Source: a virus. From it: a stretch of DNA of 31,891 nt. The DNA lies in the IMG/VR virus record IMGVR_UViG_3300037507_002357, positions 1 to 31,891 of that record. One strand, 5' to 3'. The notes beneath the pieces are model-generated. The model saw only the letters and a list, made by a program, of their open reading frames with translations. It was not told the DNA's origin and did not search any database. Shown in pieces: positions 7,517-31,891 of the stretch. The stretch's first letter is position 1, and each line of letters starts with the position of its first letter. The position numbers and the translations under genes were made by a program.

Positions 7517-7758
7517 CGGAAGCAGCGCCGGGACTGGATGACGACACCGCGAAGCGCAACCGATATGCCAGAAGCGTCATGCAAAAGGGGCTCCTTGCTG
7601 GCCTCTGGAGCATCGCTGATTTCAACAGGTCGCGTGGTCCCGGTGACTACATTTTCCCGGAGCCGGGATTCATAACTGCTCACCCGCAATTCGCCGACAA
7701 GAGCTTTCGTGATATTGCCGTTTTCAGAAACAACCCCCATCCGAGGATTCCCTTATGA
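7513..7758 (+). CDS. Small hypothetical protein
   Basis: This 81-residue protein begins at an ATGA overlap with the gene before it and ends in an ATGA overlap with the gene after. It is soluble and basic/aromatic, with GPGDYIFPEPGFI and SFRDIAVFRNN. No domain is recognised. Its base composition is lower in GC than the flanking genes, which suggests a separate origin. The overlaps at both ends are the main evidence that it is a gene. Confidence 0.65.
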   Translation: MTEAAPGLDDDTAKRNRYARSVMQKGLLAGLWSIADFNRSRGPGDYIFPEPGFITAHPQFADKSFRDIAVFRNNPHPRIPL

Positions 7759-8006
7759 ACTGGACCGAATGCTTCAAGCCAGGAGACCGTTGCCGTGTTC
7801 GCCACCAGGGCAACTGGAAGACCGCGACTATCGAAAAGGTCATCGACAACACTGCGGTGATCTGCTCAATTCAGATCGGCGGCAGTGTCAGCAATGTTCG
7901 CTGCGGTGACAGTAGGAATGTCCGGCTTCCGGCCTCGCCGGCCCTGGCAAGGCGGGGCCTGGGCCAGGAAGTGGCACAGGCAAGCATGTTCTCGGGAGAA
8001 CGCTGA
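7755..8006 (+). CDS. Small hypothetical protein, possible SH3/Tudor-like barrel
   Basis: The 83-residue protein starts in an ATGA overlap. Its first 50 residues look like a small beta barrel: FKPGDRCRVRHQGNWKTATI, then IEKVIDNTAVICSIQIGG and a closing strand. The pattern of a G-D-x-C/x-V-x turn, G-x-W, and three alternating hydrophobic strands is typical of Tudor, KOW or SH3-like folds that bind nucleic acids or peptides. The C-terminal 30 residues are unstructured. The fold is inferred and no function is known. Confidence 0.65.
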   Translation: MNWTECFKPGDRCRVRHQGNWKTATIEKVIDNTAVICSIQIGGSVSNVRCGDSRNVRLPASPALARRGLGQEVAQASMFSGER

Positions 8007-8614
8007 TGGCTCCCATGACCCACGAGGCCCTAAAGCGGCTCGTAGAGCTGGACGACGCCGCCAGCGCTCTCGGCGCAGATCCTGACACGAGGGCATGGGA
8101 CGACGCCATCACCGCCGCCCGCGTCGCGCTCCTTGCTCATGAGCTCGGGCTGGACGAAAAACCAGTCAACGCCGCCGCCGTACGGCTGCTGCAACAACTG
8201 GAACTGCGCCGGACTGATCCCGACGCGCCCTTGACGCTGGAGCGCGCCGAGAGCGAACTCCGCGCCGCCCTGGCCGCCCAGCCCCCGGCGCCGGCCCCCG
8301 CCAGCGATGGGGAACGGGAGAAGTTGGCGGCATGGCTTGACGGGGAAGCCCAATCCTGTGCAATTCAGTTCAAGGATCGAATCCTGCGCGCCGCCACCCT
8401 CCTCCGCGCCCCCGCCCCAGCTGCTGTGCCGGTGGGTGAGCGCCCGTGGGAGCGGGAGGGGTGGTGCGATGTGGAGGGCAGGTGCTGGTGGTTTAACCGG
8501 GCTGGGATCCCTGAGTGGCAACTTGCCGATGGAGGTCCTTATGGAGACTTCTGCCTCCCCCACTGGGCCATTCCCGACCCCCAGTCGCCCCAGGGCGGGG
8601 AGGTGGCGGAGTGA
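8006..8614 (+). CDS. Hypothetical protein with C-terminal EGWCD/GRCWW motif
   Basis: This 202-residue protein starts one base inside the previous stop codon; a second ATG at 8015 is possible. The N-terminal half is helical and Ala/Leu-rich, and a Pro-rich linker lies at about 91-100. The C-terminal part (about 146-190) has PWEREGWCDVEGRCWWF followed by WQLADGGPYGDFCLPHW, ending in LP-x-H-W-x-I-P. This Trp/Cys module is one I associate with short proteins of cyanophages and picocyanobacteria, where it terminates otherwise unrelated proteins. Its function is unknown; three nearby cysteines might bind a metal. The last residues (PQGGEVAE) are encoded by a repeat that recurs at the end of the next gene. 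Confidence 0.75.
   Translation: MAPMTHEALKRLVELDDAASALGADPDTRAWDDAITAARVALLAHELGLDEKPVNAAAVRLLQQLELRRTDPDAPLTLERAESELRAALAAQPPAPAPASDGEREKLAAWLDGEAQSCAIQFKDRILRAATLLRAPAPAAVPVGERPWEREGWCDVEGRCWWFNRAGIPEWQLADGGPYGDFCLPHWAIPDPQSPQGGEVAE
8586..8603 (+). repeat. Gene-junction repeat type 1, copy 1
   Basis: The 18-base sequence CGCCCCAGGGCGGGGAGG occurs here and at 8759-8776, each time at the extreme 3' end of a gene. It encodes the tail PQGGE. It contains a short inverted repeat (CGCC/GGCG) and supplies the ribosome binding site GGGGAGG for the next gene. Confidence 0.9.
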
Positions 8615-8784
8615 AAGCCACCATCCTGCAAGACGGGACGCTGAAGGTGACCCCGGAGAACGGAACCGAGTCTTATGCGCTCAAAATGTGGAACCTTGGA
8701 TTTTCGATGACCGATCACAGCGCAAGCATTTTGTGGATCGCCCATGACGACATCCAGCCGCCCCAGGGCGGGGAGGCGCAGTGA
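8611..8784 (+). CDS. Very small hypothetical protein in a repeat-bounded cassette
   Basis: The 57-residue frame starts at GTG in a GTGA overlap with the previous gene, seven bases after GGGGAGG. It ends where the next gene begins. Residues such as VKATILQDGTLKVTPENGTE, then FSMTDHSASILWI, suggest a small beta-rich protein. No family is recognised. The gene sits between the two copies of the 18-base junction repeat and ends in the same PQGGE tail as the gene before it. It is thus a candidate for gain or loss by recombination between the repeats. Confidence 0.65.
   Translation: MKATILQDGTLKVTPENGTESYALKMWNLGFSMTDHSASILWIAHDDIQPPQGGEAQ
8759..8776 (+). repeat. Gene-junction repeat type 1, copy 2
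   Basis: Identical over 18 bases to 8586-8603 and in the same relation to the reading frame, the stop codon and the next start codon. The pair brackets the 57-residue gene with a period of 173 bases. Confidence 0.9.
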
Positions 8785-9233
8785 TGCCTGATCCGATCTT
8801 CTATGCCGTGATGCGTGCAATCGCCTGGGAAGGGATCCAGGCTGGCGGATTGCCGATGGGTGCGCCGGTCGGCGGCCCGCAGCGGTTCATCCCGGTCTTT
8901 GACACGCGGGAGCAGGCCGTGGCTTTCGCTGAAGACGGGGATCGTGTTCTGCTGTTGCGGCTGAAGGTCGGGATGCACGGCAGCGCGCCGCAGCTTCTGG
9001 CGGGGATGTTTGCGGGCCTGATGGAAACACAGGACGCCCCGAACTACCTGGAGATCACATTCCAAACACCCAAAGGCCCGATGATCGTCACCGTCATCCA
9101 GCCAGGCGGCGCCACGCCGCATCAGCTCAGGCAACAGGCTGAGCAACGGGTGCAGGAGCTGGAAGCCCGCTTGGCGGCGCTGGAGCCCCCAGCAGGCGAA
9201 ACCACCACCACCACCACCACCAACAAACCATGA
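8784..9233 (+). CDS. Hypothetical protein with poly-Thr tail
   Basis: This 149-residue protein most likely starts at ATG 8784, seven bases after the ribosome binding site in the junction repeat; GTG at 8781 is an alternative. Residues about 1-110 look globular and alpha/beta: PDPIFYAVMRAIAWEGIQAG, then FIPVFDTREQAVAFAED and MIVTVIQPGG. A short Gln/Glu/Leu coiled coil follows (HQLRQQAEQRVQELEARL). The end is AGE plus seven Thr codons (all ACC) and NKP. The IPVFDTREQAVAFA segment recalls small proteins that read a parameter and adjust a value, but I cannot name a family. Its tail DNA is repeated at the end of the next gene. Confidence 0.7.
   Translation: MPDPIFYAVMRAIAWEGIQAGGLPMGAPVGGPQRFIPVFDTREQAVAFAEDGDRVLLLRLKVGMHGSAPQLLAGMFAGLMETQDAPNYLEITFQTPKGPMIVTVIQPGGATPHQLRQQAEQRVQELEARLAALEPPAGETTTTTTTNKP
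9190..9220 (+). repeat. Gene-junction repeat type 2, copy 1 (with ACC tract)
   Basis: CAGCAGGCGAA followed by an ACC tract is identical over 31 bases to 9462-9492. It encodes AGE-Thr(n) at the end of one gene. The tract (seven ACC units in all, 9201-9221) lies just upstream of the next ATG at 9230, where no Shine-Dalgarno sequence is seen. Confidence 0.92.
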
Positions 9234-9502
9234 TCAATCCCAAGGCCATCGAACAAAATCGCCGCGTCACTATTGAAAAAAGAGTGATTGTGGATGGCGA
9301 GTGGAAAACGCTATCAGACACAAGGGGTGAAGCTAAGTTTTGCTTCTTCTCTACTGATCACGAAGAGTACGAGAACGGCCCCGGACATTTCCCGGTTGCT
9401 GTAGTTGAATGGCCAGATGGGAGGCTTGAGTCGTTCCACGTCGACTTTATTCGCTTCGTTTCAGCAGGCGAAACCACCACCACCACCACCACGAACCGCT
9501 AA
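9230..9502 (+). CDS. Small hypothetical protein with poly-Thr tail, in a repeat-bounded cassette
   Basis: The 90-residue protein begins in an ATGA overlap. It looks like a single beta-rich domain: RVTIEKRVIVDGEWKTLSD, then FCFFSTDHEEYE and FPVAVVEWPDGRLESFHVD. The last stretch resembles small phage proteins of unknown role that carry a V-E-x-x-D-G-x-x-x-x-v strand pair. The C-terminus is AGE plus a Thr run (six ACC codons and one ACG) and NR, repeating the end of the preceding gene. Its GC content is clearly lower than that of the surrounding genes, consistent with recent arrival. It is flanked by the two 31-base repeats. Confidence 0.7.
   Translation: MINPKAIEQNRRVTIEKRVIVDGEWKTLSDTRGEAKFCFFSTDHEEYENGPGHFPVAVVEWPDGRLESFHVDFIRFVSAGETTTTTTTNR
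9462..9492 (+). repeat. Gene-junction repeat type 2, copy 2 (with ACC tract)
   Basis: Identical over 31 bases to 9190-9220, with a period of 272 bases. It again encodes AGE and the start of a Thr run at a gene end, and it lies 11 bases upstream of the ATG at 9504. The two copies bracket the 90-residue gene. Confidence 0.92.
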
Positions 9503-9503
9503 C

Positions 9504-10457
9504 ATGCTGAAAAGCGACCGCTGGATCAACGAACAGGCCGCCGCCGGTATGATCGAGCCGTTCCAGGGCACGTTGGTGCGGCACCTGGAGCCGGAGAGCG
9601 CCGGGTCGCCGGTGTTGAGCTTCGGCTGCTCCTCCTACGGTTACGACCTGCGCCTCTCGGCGAAGGAATTCCTGATCTTCCGCCACGTGCCGGGCATGGT
9701 GATGAACCCGAAGCTGAAGTTGATGGTCGACACGGAGATTTACCTCTTCCGAGCGGCCGTCGCCTGCGAGATTGAGATTGAGTGGCAGCCAGACGTGTGG
9801 CAATACTTCTGCCGCCACGGGGAAGCGAAGGGCCTGTTTCAGGGCATGATTGCCGACCTTATGGCGGCAGCGCCCGACCACCGGCCCGTACTTGCGTTCT
9901 CGACCGGGTATTCGTTTCGCTACGGAATCTGGCCGTCCTACAAGGCGAACAGGAAGAAGTATCGAAAGCCCTGCGGCTATCAAGCCCTGGTCGACTGGGT
10001 GTCGAGCATCGCGGCGGCGCGTGACTGGGGCCTGGCCGCACTGCCTGACGTGGAGGCCGACGACGTACTGGGGATCCTCGCCGGGCCCGGCGACGTGATC
10101 GCCAGTGTCGACAAGGACATGTTGACCATCCCTGGCCTCCACCTGCGAGACCGCGGGGAGCTGTTGGAGGTCAGCCGGCTCCAGGCCGACCTGGCCTTTT
10201 ACGCGCAGACGCTGACCGGGGACCAGTCGGACAACTACCCCGGCTGCCCGAAGGTTGGGGAGGTCGGCGCCCGCCGGCTGCTGGAGGGGCTGCAGACCGA
10301 GCAGGAAATGTGGGCGGCCGTGCTGTCGGCCTTCCGCAAGGCCGGCCTGGACGACCGCTATGCCCTGGCGCAGGCCCGCTGCGCTCGCATCCTGCGACCC
10401 GAGGACTACGACCTGGCCGCTCAGGTGGTGCGACCGTGGGTTCCCCCGGTAGGCTGA
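9504..10457 (+). CDS. 5'-3' exonuclease (T7 gp6-like) fused to an N-terminal dCTP deaminase fragment
   Basis: The 317-residue protein has two parts in one uninterrupted frame. Residues 1-70 (MLKSDRWINEQ, GMIEPF, LVRHLEPE, SYGYDLRLS, EFLIFRHVPG, MNPK) read like the N-terminus of cyanobacterial dCTP deaminase. That enzyme's catalytic Glu and trimer core are missing. From about residue 71 the protein is a flap/5'-3' exonuclease: LMVDTEIYLF (Asp76), YKANRKKYRKPCGY, EADDVLG (Asp186/Asp187), SVDKDM (Asp203/Asp205) and TGDQSDN (Asp240/Asp243). This is the set of T7 gp6, which removes RNA primers and degrades host DNA. Internal ATGs at 9700, 9703 and 9723 have no ribosome binding site, so translation from 9504 is preferred. 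The exonuclease should be active and the deaminase not. Confidence 0.88.
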   Translation: MLKSDRWINEQAAAGMIEPFQGTLVRHLEPESAGSPVLSFGCSSYGYDLRLSAKEFLIFRHVPGMVMNPKLKLMVDTEIYLFRAAVACEIEIEWQPDVWQYFCRHGEAKGLFQGMIADLMAAAPDHRPVLAFSTGYSFRYGIWPSYKANRKKYRKPCGYQALVDWVSSIAAARDWGLAALPDVEADDVLGILAGPGDVIASVDKDMLTIPGLHLRDRGELLEVSRLQADLAFYAQTLTGDQSDNYPGCPKVGEVGARRLLEGLQTEQEMWAAVLSAFRKAGLDDRYALAQARCARILRPEDYDLAAQVVRPWVPPVG

Positions 10458-10476: not shown

Positions 10477-10698
10477 ATGTTCCAGCTGGTGACCCAGGAG
10501 CTCATCGACAGGCTCGATGACGTGTTTCCACCGAAGCCCACTCGGTCGATGGATCACCGCCAAATCGACTGGCAGATTGGCCAGCAGATGGTGATCGATC
10601 TGCTGAAGGAATGGCTTGCGGAAGGCGTCGCAGGCGAGGATGCGCTCAACCCGCTGGGCCTGAGCCAGCCATCCGGTCCCCTCGCGGAACCGCGGTGA
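10477..10698 (+). CDS. Small conserved-looking protein between exonuclease and virion genes
   Basis: The 73-residue protein begins at ATG 10477 and ends one base inside the next gene. Its sequence (MFQLVTQELIDRLDDVFPPK, then GQQMVIDLLKEWLAE) has the form of short proteins seen after the exonuclease gene in T7-like cyanophages: an N-terminal helix, L-x-x-x-F-P-x-K, and a G-Q-Q-x-V/x-x-x-L helix. The role is unknown. It has no membrane segment or signal peptide. The 19-base gap before it lacks a clear ribosome binding site. Confidence 0.65.
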   Translation: MFQLVTQELIDRLDDVFPPKPTRSMDHRQIDWQIGQQMVIDLLKEWLAEGVAGEDALNPLGLSQPSGPLAEPR

Positions 10699-31184: not shown

Positions 31185-31891
31185 GTGCCCCGTCCCCCGA
31201 GCTGGATCAGCTACGCCGGGAACGGCAGCAACCGCTTATTCGGTGTACCTTTCCCGTACTTGCTGAGGTCTCATGTAGCAGTTGGCTACGGATGGGACGC
31301 TGATTCCGATACGTTTTCGCAACAACTTATTGAGCCGGCTGGTTTCACTTGGATAAGTGACACGACGATACAAGTAACCACGGCCCCCACGAGTGCGCAA
31401 GCGTTGTTTATACGTCGCAAAACGCCAACCGACGCACAGTTAGTTCAGTGGGTAGACGGATCGACCGTTAATGCTTACGACGTAAATACGGCTGATCTAC
31501 AGTTTCTGTATTCGCTCCAGGAGCGGGAGGATCGACCCGGAGGGGGCGTAGGGGGCGGGCAGGACGGGCAGGACGGCCGCACCATCCTCAACGGCAGCGG
31601 CGCCCCGGCGGCTGGCCTGGGCGCCAACGATGACTTCTACCTCGACACCACAGCATCCCGGCTCTACGGGCCGAAGGCGGCTGGTGCGTGGGGATCGGGC
31701 GTGTCGCTGATCGGCCCACCGGGCACCAACGGCACCAACGGTGCCAACGGCACCAACGGCACCAACGGCCGCACCATCCTCAACGGCAGCGGCGCCCCGG
31801 CGGCTGGCCTGGGCGCCAACGATGACTTCTACCTCGACACCACAGCATCCCGGCTCTACGGGCCGAAGGCGGCTGGTGCGTGGGGATCGGG
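31185..31891 (+). CDS. Tail fibre protein, T7 gp17-like N-terminus (3' end outside window)
   Basis: A frame opened by GTG 31185 (a stop codon lies in frame at 31161) runs to the end of the window. Residues 5-115 match the virion-attachment domain of T7 gp17: WISYAGNGSNRLFGVPFPYL (T7 TYQLDGSNRDFNIPFEYL), LFIRRKTPTDAQLVQWVDGS (T7 IEIRRVTSTTDRLVDFTDGS) and YDVNTADLQFLYSLQE (T7 YDLNVAQIQTMHVAEE). A Gly-rich hinge follows, then two copies of a TILNGSGAP...DDFYLDTTASRLYGPK module joined by collagen-like GTNGTNG triplets. The protein anchors the fibre to the tail and recognises the host. The attachment domain is low in GC (27 of 60 in 31321-31380) while the repeat part is GC-rich. It has no ribosome binding site. 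Confidence 0.9.
   Translation, partial: MPRPPSWISYAGNGSNRLFGVPFPYLLRSHVAVGYGWDADSDTFSQQLIEPAGFTWISDTTIQVTTAPTSAQALFIRRKTPTDAQLVQWVDGSTVNAYDVNTADLQFLYSLQEREDRPGGGVGGGQDGQDGRTILNGSGAPAAGLGANDDFYLDTTASRLYGPKAAGAWGSGVSLIGPPGTNGTNGANGTNGTNGRTILNGSGAPAAGLGANDDFYLDTTASRLYGPKAAGAWGS
31573..31699 (+). repeat. Tail fibre module repeat, copy 1
   Basis: At least 127 bases are identical to 31765-31891, a period of 192 bases or 64 codons. It encodes the module beginning GRTILNGSGAP. Exact identity at the DNA level points to recent duplication or ongoing gene conversion. Confidence 0.93.
31765..31891 (+). repeat. Tail fibre module repeat, copy 2 (runs off the window)
   Basis: Identical to 31573-31699 as far as the window extends. 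The sequence stops inside the repeat, so more copies may follow. Confidence 0.93.

Follow-up and report, generated by a model that had tools for sequence, protein, structure and literature searches.

The 31,891-bp window, that is, the whole stretch of DNA that was analysed (IMGVR_UViG_3300037507_002357), contains an ORF at 9504-10457 that encodes 317 amino acids without an internal stop and is a chimera of the N-terminus of a dCTP deaminase (Dcd) and an exonuclease. We consider it probable that this is a genuine in-frame dcd-exonuclease fusion, that the exonuclease functions normally in it, and that the Dcd part serves as a catalytically dead passenger leader. The fusion is most likely young, private and translation-competent. 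The exonuclease and deaminase families are both already known, and a limited literature search gave no description of a dcd-exonuclease fusion.

Structure of the fusion reading frame

The features of the locus are as follows.

7759..9714, + strand: variable cargo slot, from the end of a conserved ORF at 7758 to the exonuclease (synteny table, slot ORFs)
8781..9233, + strand: upstream phage ORF of 150 aa, overlapping the 9230 ORF by ATGA and ending in an (ACC)7 tract
9230..9502, + strand: upstream phage ORF of 90 aa (phrog_11000), its stop codon 1 nt before the fusion start
9462..9503, + strand: A/C-rich leader of the fusion start codon, containing (ACC)6 (repeat search, (ACC)n positions)
9504..9714, + strand: first 70 codons (MLKSDRWI...VMNPK) and one further base of a picocyanobacterial-type dcd (amino acid and nucleotide identity)
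9715..10457, + strand: gp6-like 5'-3' exonuclease / flap-nuclease domain (homology, PF02739, acidic residues, AF2)
10477..10698, + strand: downstream conserved phage ORF (phrog_4970), in the syntenic 3' flank

The original prediction read residues 1-70 as a picocyanobacterial-type Dcd N-terminus and the protein from residue 71 onward as a complete gp6-like nuclease, joined in frame at MNPK/LKLMVD, and this reading was borne out. Residues 1-70 share 81-90% amino acid identity with the 80 closest picocyanobacterial host Dcd loci, and the best nucleotide match was 86.7% over 210 nt, to Synechococcus sp. GreenBA-s (L160). Identity of the piece to viral proteins was at most 84% in viral contigs and below 60% in the phage collection. 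With PHROGs, phrog_1663 (dCTP deaminase) matched residues 1-69 (1.3e-5) and phrog_107 (exonuclease) residues 66-306 (2.5e-45). Among PDB structures of Dcd, 4dhk aligned with residues 2-70 and 3km3 with residues 4-70, and both matches end at the join. Judged by these alignments, the two-part match of the ORF is far beyond chance.

The boundary could be placed at 9714/9715, where the junction sequence is AACCCGAAGC / TGAAGTTGATG, in agreement with the join seen in the protein. The nucleotide similarity to dcd stops at 9714 (AACCCGAAGC), where hosts go on with GGTTC; across the join, host dcd reads AACCCGAAGCGGTTC and the exonuclease of Synechococcus phage S-SRP02 begins ATGAAGCTG. The exonuclease similarity starts at 9715 with the TG of the ancestral start codon, corresponding to the second base (22390) of the start codon in S-SRP02. 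Everything as far as the first base of the exonuclease start codon has thus given way to 211 nt of dcd, and the frame is kept. Alternatively, base 9714 may be read as an ATG or GTG start codon mutated to CTG. The 5' boundary is the dcd ATG; a single nucleotide separates it from the stop codon of the upstream ORF (9230-9502), and 13 nt separate it from the (ACC)6 tract.

Genomic context and authenticity of the join

The record is a partial genome of an uncultured, S-SRP02-like cyanopodovirus, a freshwater-type cyanophage. Its gene order (integrase, T7-type RNA polymerase, SSB, RusA, small ORFs, exonuclease, portal, scaffold, capsid, tail and internal proteins) is that of S-SRP02 (MW822601, here also L002), and tblastn synteny with MW822601, L003, L004 and others confirmed the order int-RNAP-SSB-RusA-...-exo-portal of this lineage. 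The fusion is flanked by genes syntenic with those of relatives, namely RNAP, SSB, RusA and ORFs 6396, 7001 and 7468 upstream, and ORFs 10477 and 10695 and the portal gene downstream. Since the exonuclease differs by about 36% of its amino acids from the nearest known relative, the lineage of the window phage is well separated from the sampled relatives.

The cargo slot closes with the Dcd piece, just upstream of the exonuclease. In relatives this slot measures about 0.6-2.0 kb and holds small ORFs that differ between phages, such as a pentapeptide-repeat-like protein in L004. Consecutive slot ORFs at 8006-9502 of the window share similar tails (SPQGGEVAE, PPQGGEAQ, PPAGETTTTTTTNKP and SAGETTTTTTTNR), which reflect repeated gene-boundary DNA, where the stop codon is combined with a possible ribosome-binding site and the following start.

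The join looks real by sequence, and it occurs in one contig only. An assembly or amplification chimera, joining a host dcd read to a phage contig, is unlikely. The record is a metagenomic contig, the fusion was seen once, and the 3' end of the contig stops in a 127-nt repeat, as is typical of an assembly break. The repeat is direct and exact (31573-31699 and 31765-31891) and lies in a tail-fibre-like gene that contains collagen-like GTN repeats; the window ends on its second copy, so the record was cut by such a break. But with phage synteny on both sides, the 211-bp host segment could be an artefact only if false joins had been made exactly at both of its ends, the dcd ATG and the exonuclease start codon, with frame and strand both correct. 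Past codon 70, the host dcd genes compared agree with the window in about one base, the C (AAGC, then GG vs TG), and therefore no shared k-mer of assembly length was available for an assembler to make the 3' join. Likewise, the DNA upstream of the fusion ATG is not host-like: a phage repeat precedes the ATG, and the host dcd loci compared lack that repeat. The syntenic flanks, the missing k-mer and the non-host DNA before the ATG speak strongly for a real junction, as originally proposed.

It is extremely unlikely that the dcd fragment is a recombination or att site left by phage integration into host dcd. The window does encode a tyrosine integrase at 148-1140, but the fragment lies 8.4 kb from it and matches the nearest host at only 86.7%. 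In addition, two cyanobacterial genomes with close relatives of the exonuclease carry dcd and exonuclease on different contigs, and no prophage was seen within their dcd. We rejected the att-site idea, as no tRNA was found in the window and no dcd-integrated prophage was seen.

The fusion was in no other exonuclease found among 58 viral loci, 1,751 phage records and 300 cyanobacterial genomes. Viral contigs were searched with the whole protein, the Dcd piece and a degenerate junction pattern, and no other viral contig matched the pattern; near copies of the window possibly lie outside the searched sets. None of 80 viral dcd loci contained the exonuclease, and the two cyanobacterial genomes, whose exonuclease is 60-61% identical, had no fusion. 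Eleven relatives, including the complete S-SRP02 and several contigs of about 42-43 kb, have a separate exonuclease and no dcd match. For three of the eleven a Dcd family search agreed, with control genomes and dcd-bearing phages matched. Because the fusion was seen nowhere else and these relatives have no dcd, the fusion is confined to this phage or a lineage outside the searched collections.

Properties of the two halves

Like the exonucleases of S-SRP02-like phages (MW822601 ORF34, L003-L029), the second half of the fusion lies at the same gene position and keeps the same catalytic acidic residues. All these relatives begin at or near residue 71, and unlike the fusion none has a Dcd N-terminus. 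Residues 71-316 share 53-64% amino acid identity with them, and 61-64% with S-SRP02, L003 and L004. PF02739, the N-terminal resolvase-like nuclease domain, scored 43.5 bits against a cut-off of 34.3 (E=3.6e-11), and PF01367, the C-terminal SAM-fold with a helix-hairpin-helix, scored 30.1 bits, below its cut-off of 40 (E=6.8e-7). Residues D76, E184, D186, D187, D203, D205, D240 and D243 are present and 100% conserved across 37 aligned exonucleases. The AF2 model of this half had a pLDDT of 91-98 over most of the domain. Foldseek matched the model to a plastid exonuclease, M. smegmatis FEN, E. coli ExoIX and T5 FEN (E 1e-11 to 1e-7), and the best viral structural match was 1.2 A over 247 columns. 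Judging from sequence and model together, the exonuclease half should be active. T7 gp6 and related enzymes act in primer removal, end resection and host DNA breakdown, and the fused enzyme would keep this usual gp6/FEN-like work, including 5'-end resection.

S-SRP02 ORF34 (L002 22389-23129) is annotated as DNA polymerase I, and the gene encodes an exonuclease only. DNA_pol_A and DNA_pol_B had no match in S-SRP02 or in five relatives of about 41-43 kb (G004, G005, G303, G306 and G310), while the controls matched. The S-SRP02 gene is given as DNA polymerase I in PMC8790148, where the concatenated tree includes a "DNA polymerase"; this may be the S-SRP02 exonuclease gene. S-SRP02 ORF14 is annotated as Pol III beta-like, and the C-terminal beta-clamp model PF02768 did not match it. 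The S-SRP02-like lineage may depend on the host replicase.

The Dcd piece corresponds to the N-terminus of picocyanobacterial Dcd and lacks residues 71-197. The host motifs GKSTYARLG and TLEFSN (residues 119-146), which are the counterparts of the substrate and catalytic residues reported for E. coli Dcd (Johansson et al. 2005), are therefore missing, and with them the host-invariant residues G119-R125 (GKSTYAR) and E146 (TLEF). The 71-aa piece had no Pfam match, whereas a full-length host Dcd used as control scored 80.8 bits (PF22769), and the Dcd family search gave no PF22769 match in the window. By sequence, the piece cannot deaminate, since the conserved Glu, the substrate motifs and the Pfam Dcd match are all missing; the original prediction had said so on the grounds of the active-site Glu, which indeed lies in the missing part, in TLEFSN. 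It had also suggested that the piece may bind nucleotides, help oligomerise or interfere with the host deaminase; positive evidence emerged for none of the three. Dcd-type nucleotide binding is very probably absent, because the nucleotide-contacting motifs are missing. Among the functions offered, simply providing a good start is the best fit. The piece most likely only gives the exonuclease a new start and an N-terminal leader, and it is probably unstructured.

The Dcd segment may instead be functional; its partner for contact or co-assembly would be host Dcd, or else an enzyme of replication or nucleotide metabolism. This would place the nuclease near the dNTP machinery or perturb the host dCTP to dUTP flux, and we regard it as rather unlikely. 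In its favour, 37 of 38 host-invariant Dcd positions are kept, the sole change being T65M, five residues before the end of the piece, and dN to hosts (median 0.113) is that found between hosts (0.112). Native Dcd is a trimer with active sites at the subunit interfaces (PMC4827122). Against it, only the N-terminal third is present, without the active-site motifs, and AF2 gave the Dcd part of the fusion a pLDDT of about 41-56, although a full-length host Dcd control modelled as a single chain was also poor (pLDDT 40), so that the model has no bearing on whether the piece folds. The piece is shared by no relative, so long-term selection cannot be shown. A decoy nuclease, in which the Dcd segment engages host Dcd trimers and so tethers the exonuclease to, or poisons, the enzyme of dUTP/dTTP supply, is very doubtful; if true, it would couple DNA breakdown to nucleotide recycling. 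A functional extension would represent a novel means by which a phage ties its nuclease to host nucleotide metabolism. As the evidence stands, the fusion is mainly a private gene-fusion event, with the Dcd part probably a passenger.

Origin, expression and (ACC)n leaders

The kept invariant positions and the host-like dN mean that the fusion is either young or constrained. The dN/dS of the Dcd piece, too, was indistinguishable from that between hosts, and so does not separate recent capture from constraint. In a simulation, more than about 10-12 random substitutions in 210 nt would probably hit at least two invariant positions (P about 0.07-0.03); if the piece is neutral, 37 of 38 kept positions thus fit fewer than about 10-12 random substitutions since capture. 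The host-like conservation could instead reflect selection. A donor genome for the piece was not found by nucleotide comparison with hosts, the nearest of which is 86.7% identical, and the donor phylogeny, built on 210 nt only, was poorly supported (0.66-0.80). L175 (CALPNT020000040.1), titled a Bifidobacterium breve MAG, carries a picocyanobacterial dcd with 84% amino acid identity to the window piece, so that its title or bin is probably wrong.

As a passenger leader, the piece would have arisen when the exonuclease start codon lost its first base to the first 211 nt of a host-type dcd in the variable slot. In the simplest history, dcd resided in the cargo slot behind an ACC-rich leader until a deletion brought its codon 70 up to the exonuclease start; alternatively, a dcd fragment may have been inserted directly. 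The original prediction invoked a deletion joining a phage-borne or host-derived dcd to the exonuclease. The host-type origin stood, but the eleven dcd-less relatives offered no full-dcd intermediate for the deletion. A phage-borne source is supported at the level of the class, since full-length dcd is common in cyanophages. Host-type dcd of full length is frequent in freshwater cyanophages (e.g. L115, L101 and L061), sometimes behind the same (ACC)n leader. Like the fusion piece, the dcd of L115 and L101 is host-type and lies directly behind an ACC-rich leader. Unlike it, the dcd genes of L115, L101 and L061 are complete unless cut by the contig end, have no exonuclease join and lie on unrelated backbones. 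The fusion is a base-level snapshot of a captured host gene becoming an N-terminal extension of an essential-looking phage enzyme, made by a join inside a start codon in a variable cargo slot.

The fusion protein would start at 9504, in a phage-type A/C-rich leader. The 35-nt block holding (ACC)6 repeats the phage sequence of 9190-9224 with 97% identity, and ACC tracts are found both at the end of the 8781-9233 ORF (9201-9221) and in the fusion leader (9473-9490). The stop codon of the 9230 ORF next to the fusion ATG is compatible with translational coupling. As the fusion start lies in this leader one base after the upstream stop (TAA-C-ATG), initiation is likely by termination-reinitiation. 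The Dcd leader may have been kept because it supplies a start and is harmless to the nuclease. Translation of the exonuclease from an internal ATG, with the Dcd frame an untranslated or separately translated remnant, is very unlikely. ATGs adjoining the join (9696, 9702 and 9723) could yield a near-native exonuclease, and the ancestral start codon is now CTG; but the 211-nt frame is intact and without a stop, inspection by eye showed no strong Shine-Dalgarno sequence before the internal ATGs, and the ATG at 9504 lies 1 nt past the upstream stop within the phage-type leader.

The (ACC)n tracts were located as follows.

Window: 109-147, 9201-9221 and 9473-9490
L002: 10878 and 13965
L003: 2263
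L007: 631
L061: 8636
L101: 5987
L115: 535

These cyanophage microsatellites end 0-17 nt before start codons, and the genes behind them are the integrase, a Pol III beta-like gene, dcd and the dcd-exonuclease fusion. Of the tracts with n>=4, 14 of 19 in cyanophage loci lay at most 20 nt before an ATG-ORF, vs none of 16 in host loci. In general viral contigs, tracts of n>=7 near start codons were found in 4 of 108 (controls 1-5, no link), so the pattern is not universal. Other freshwater-type cyanophage dcd genes have A/C-rich leaders without (ACC)n, e.g. caccctcacccctgacccccaATG. The (ACC)n leaders look like a group-specific initiation-leader habit of these cyanophages, and the tracts are possibly a translation-initiation leader or a length-variable switch. 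They may indicate an unrecognised habit of translation initiation, possibly a broader, incidental finding. L115 (IMGVR_UViG_3300032116_001200), an unrelated cyanophage-like contig, carries at 585-1184 a full-length dcd behind an (ACC)13 leader, with a C39-peptidase-like ORF on the strand opposite dcd.
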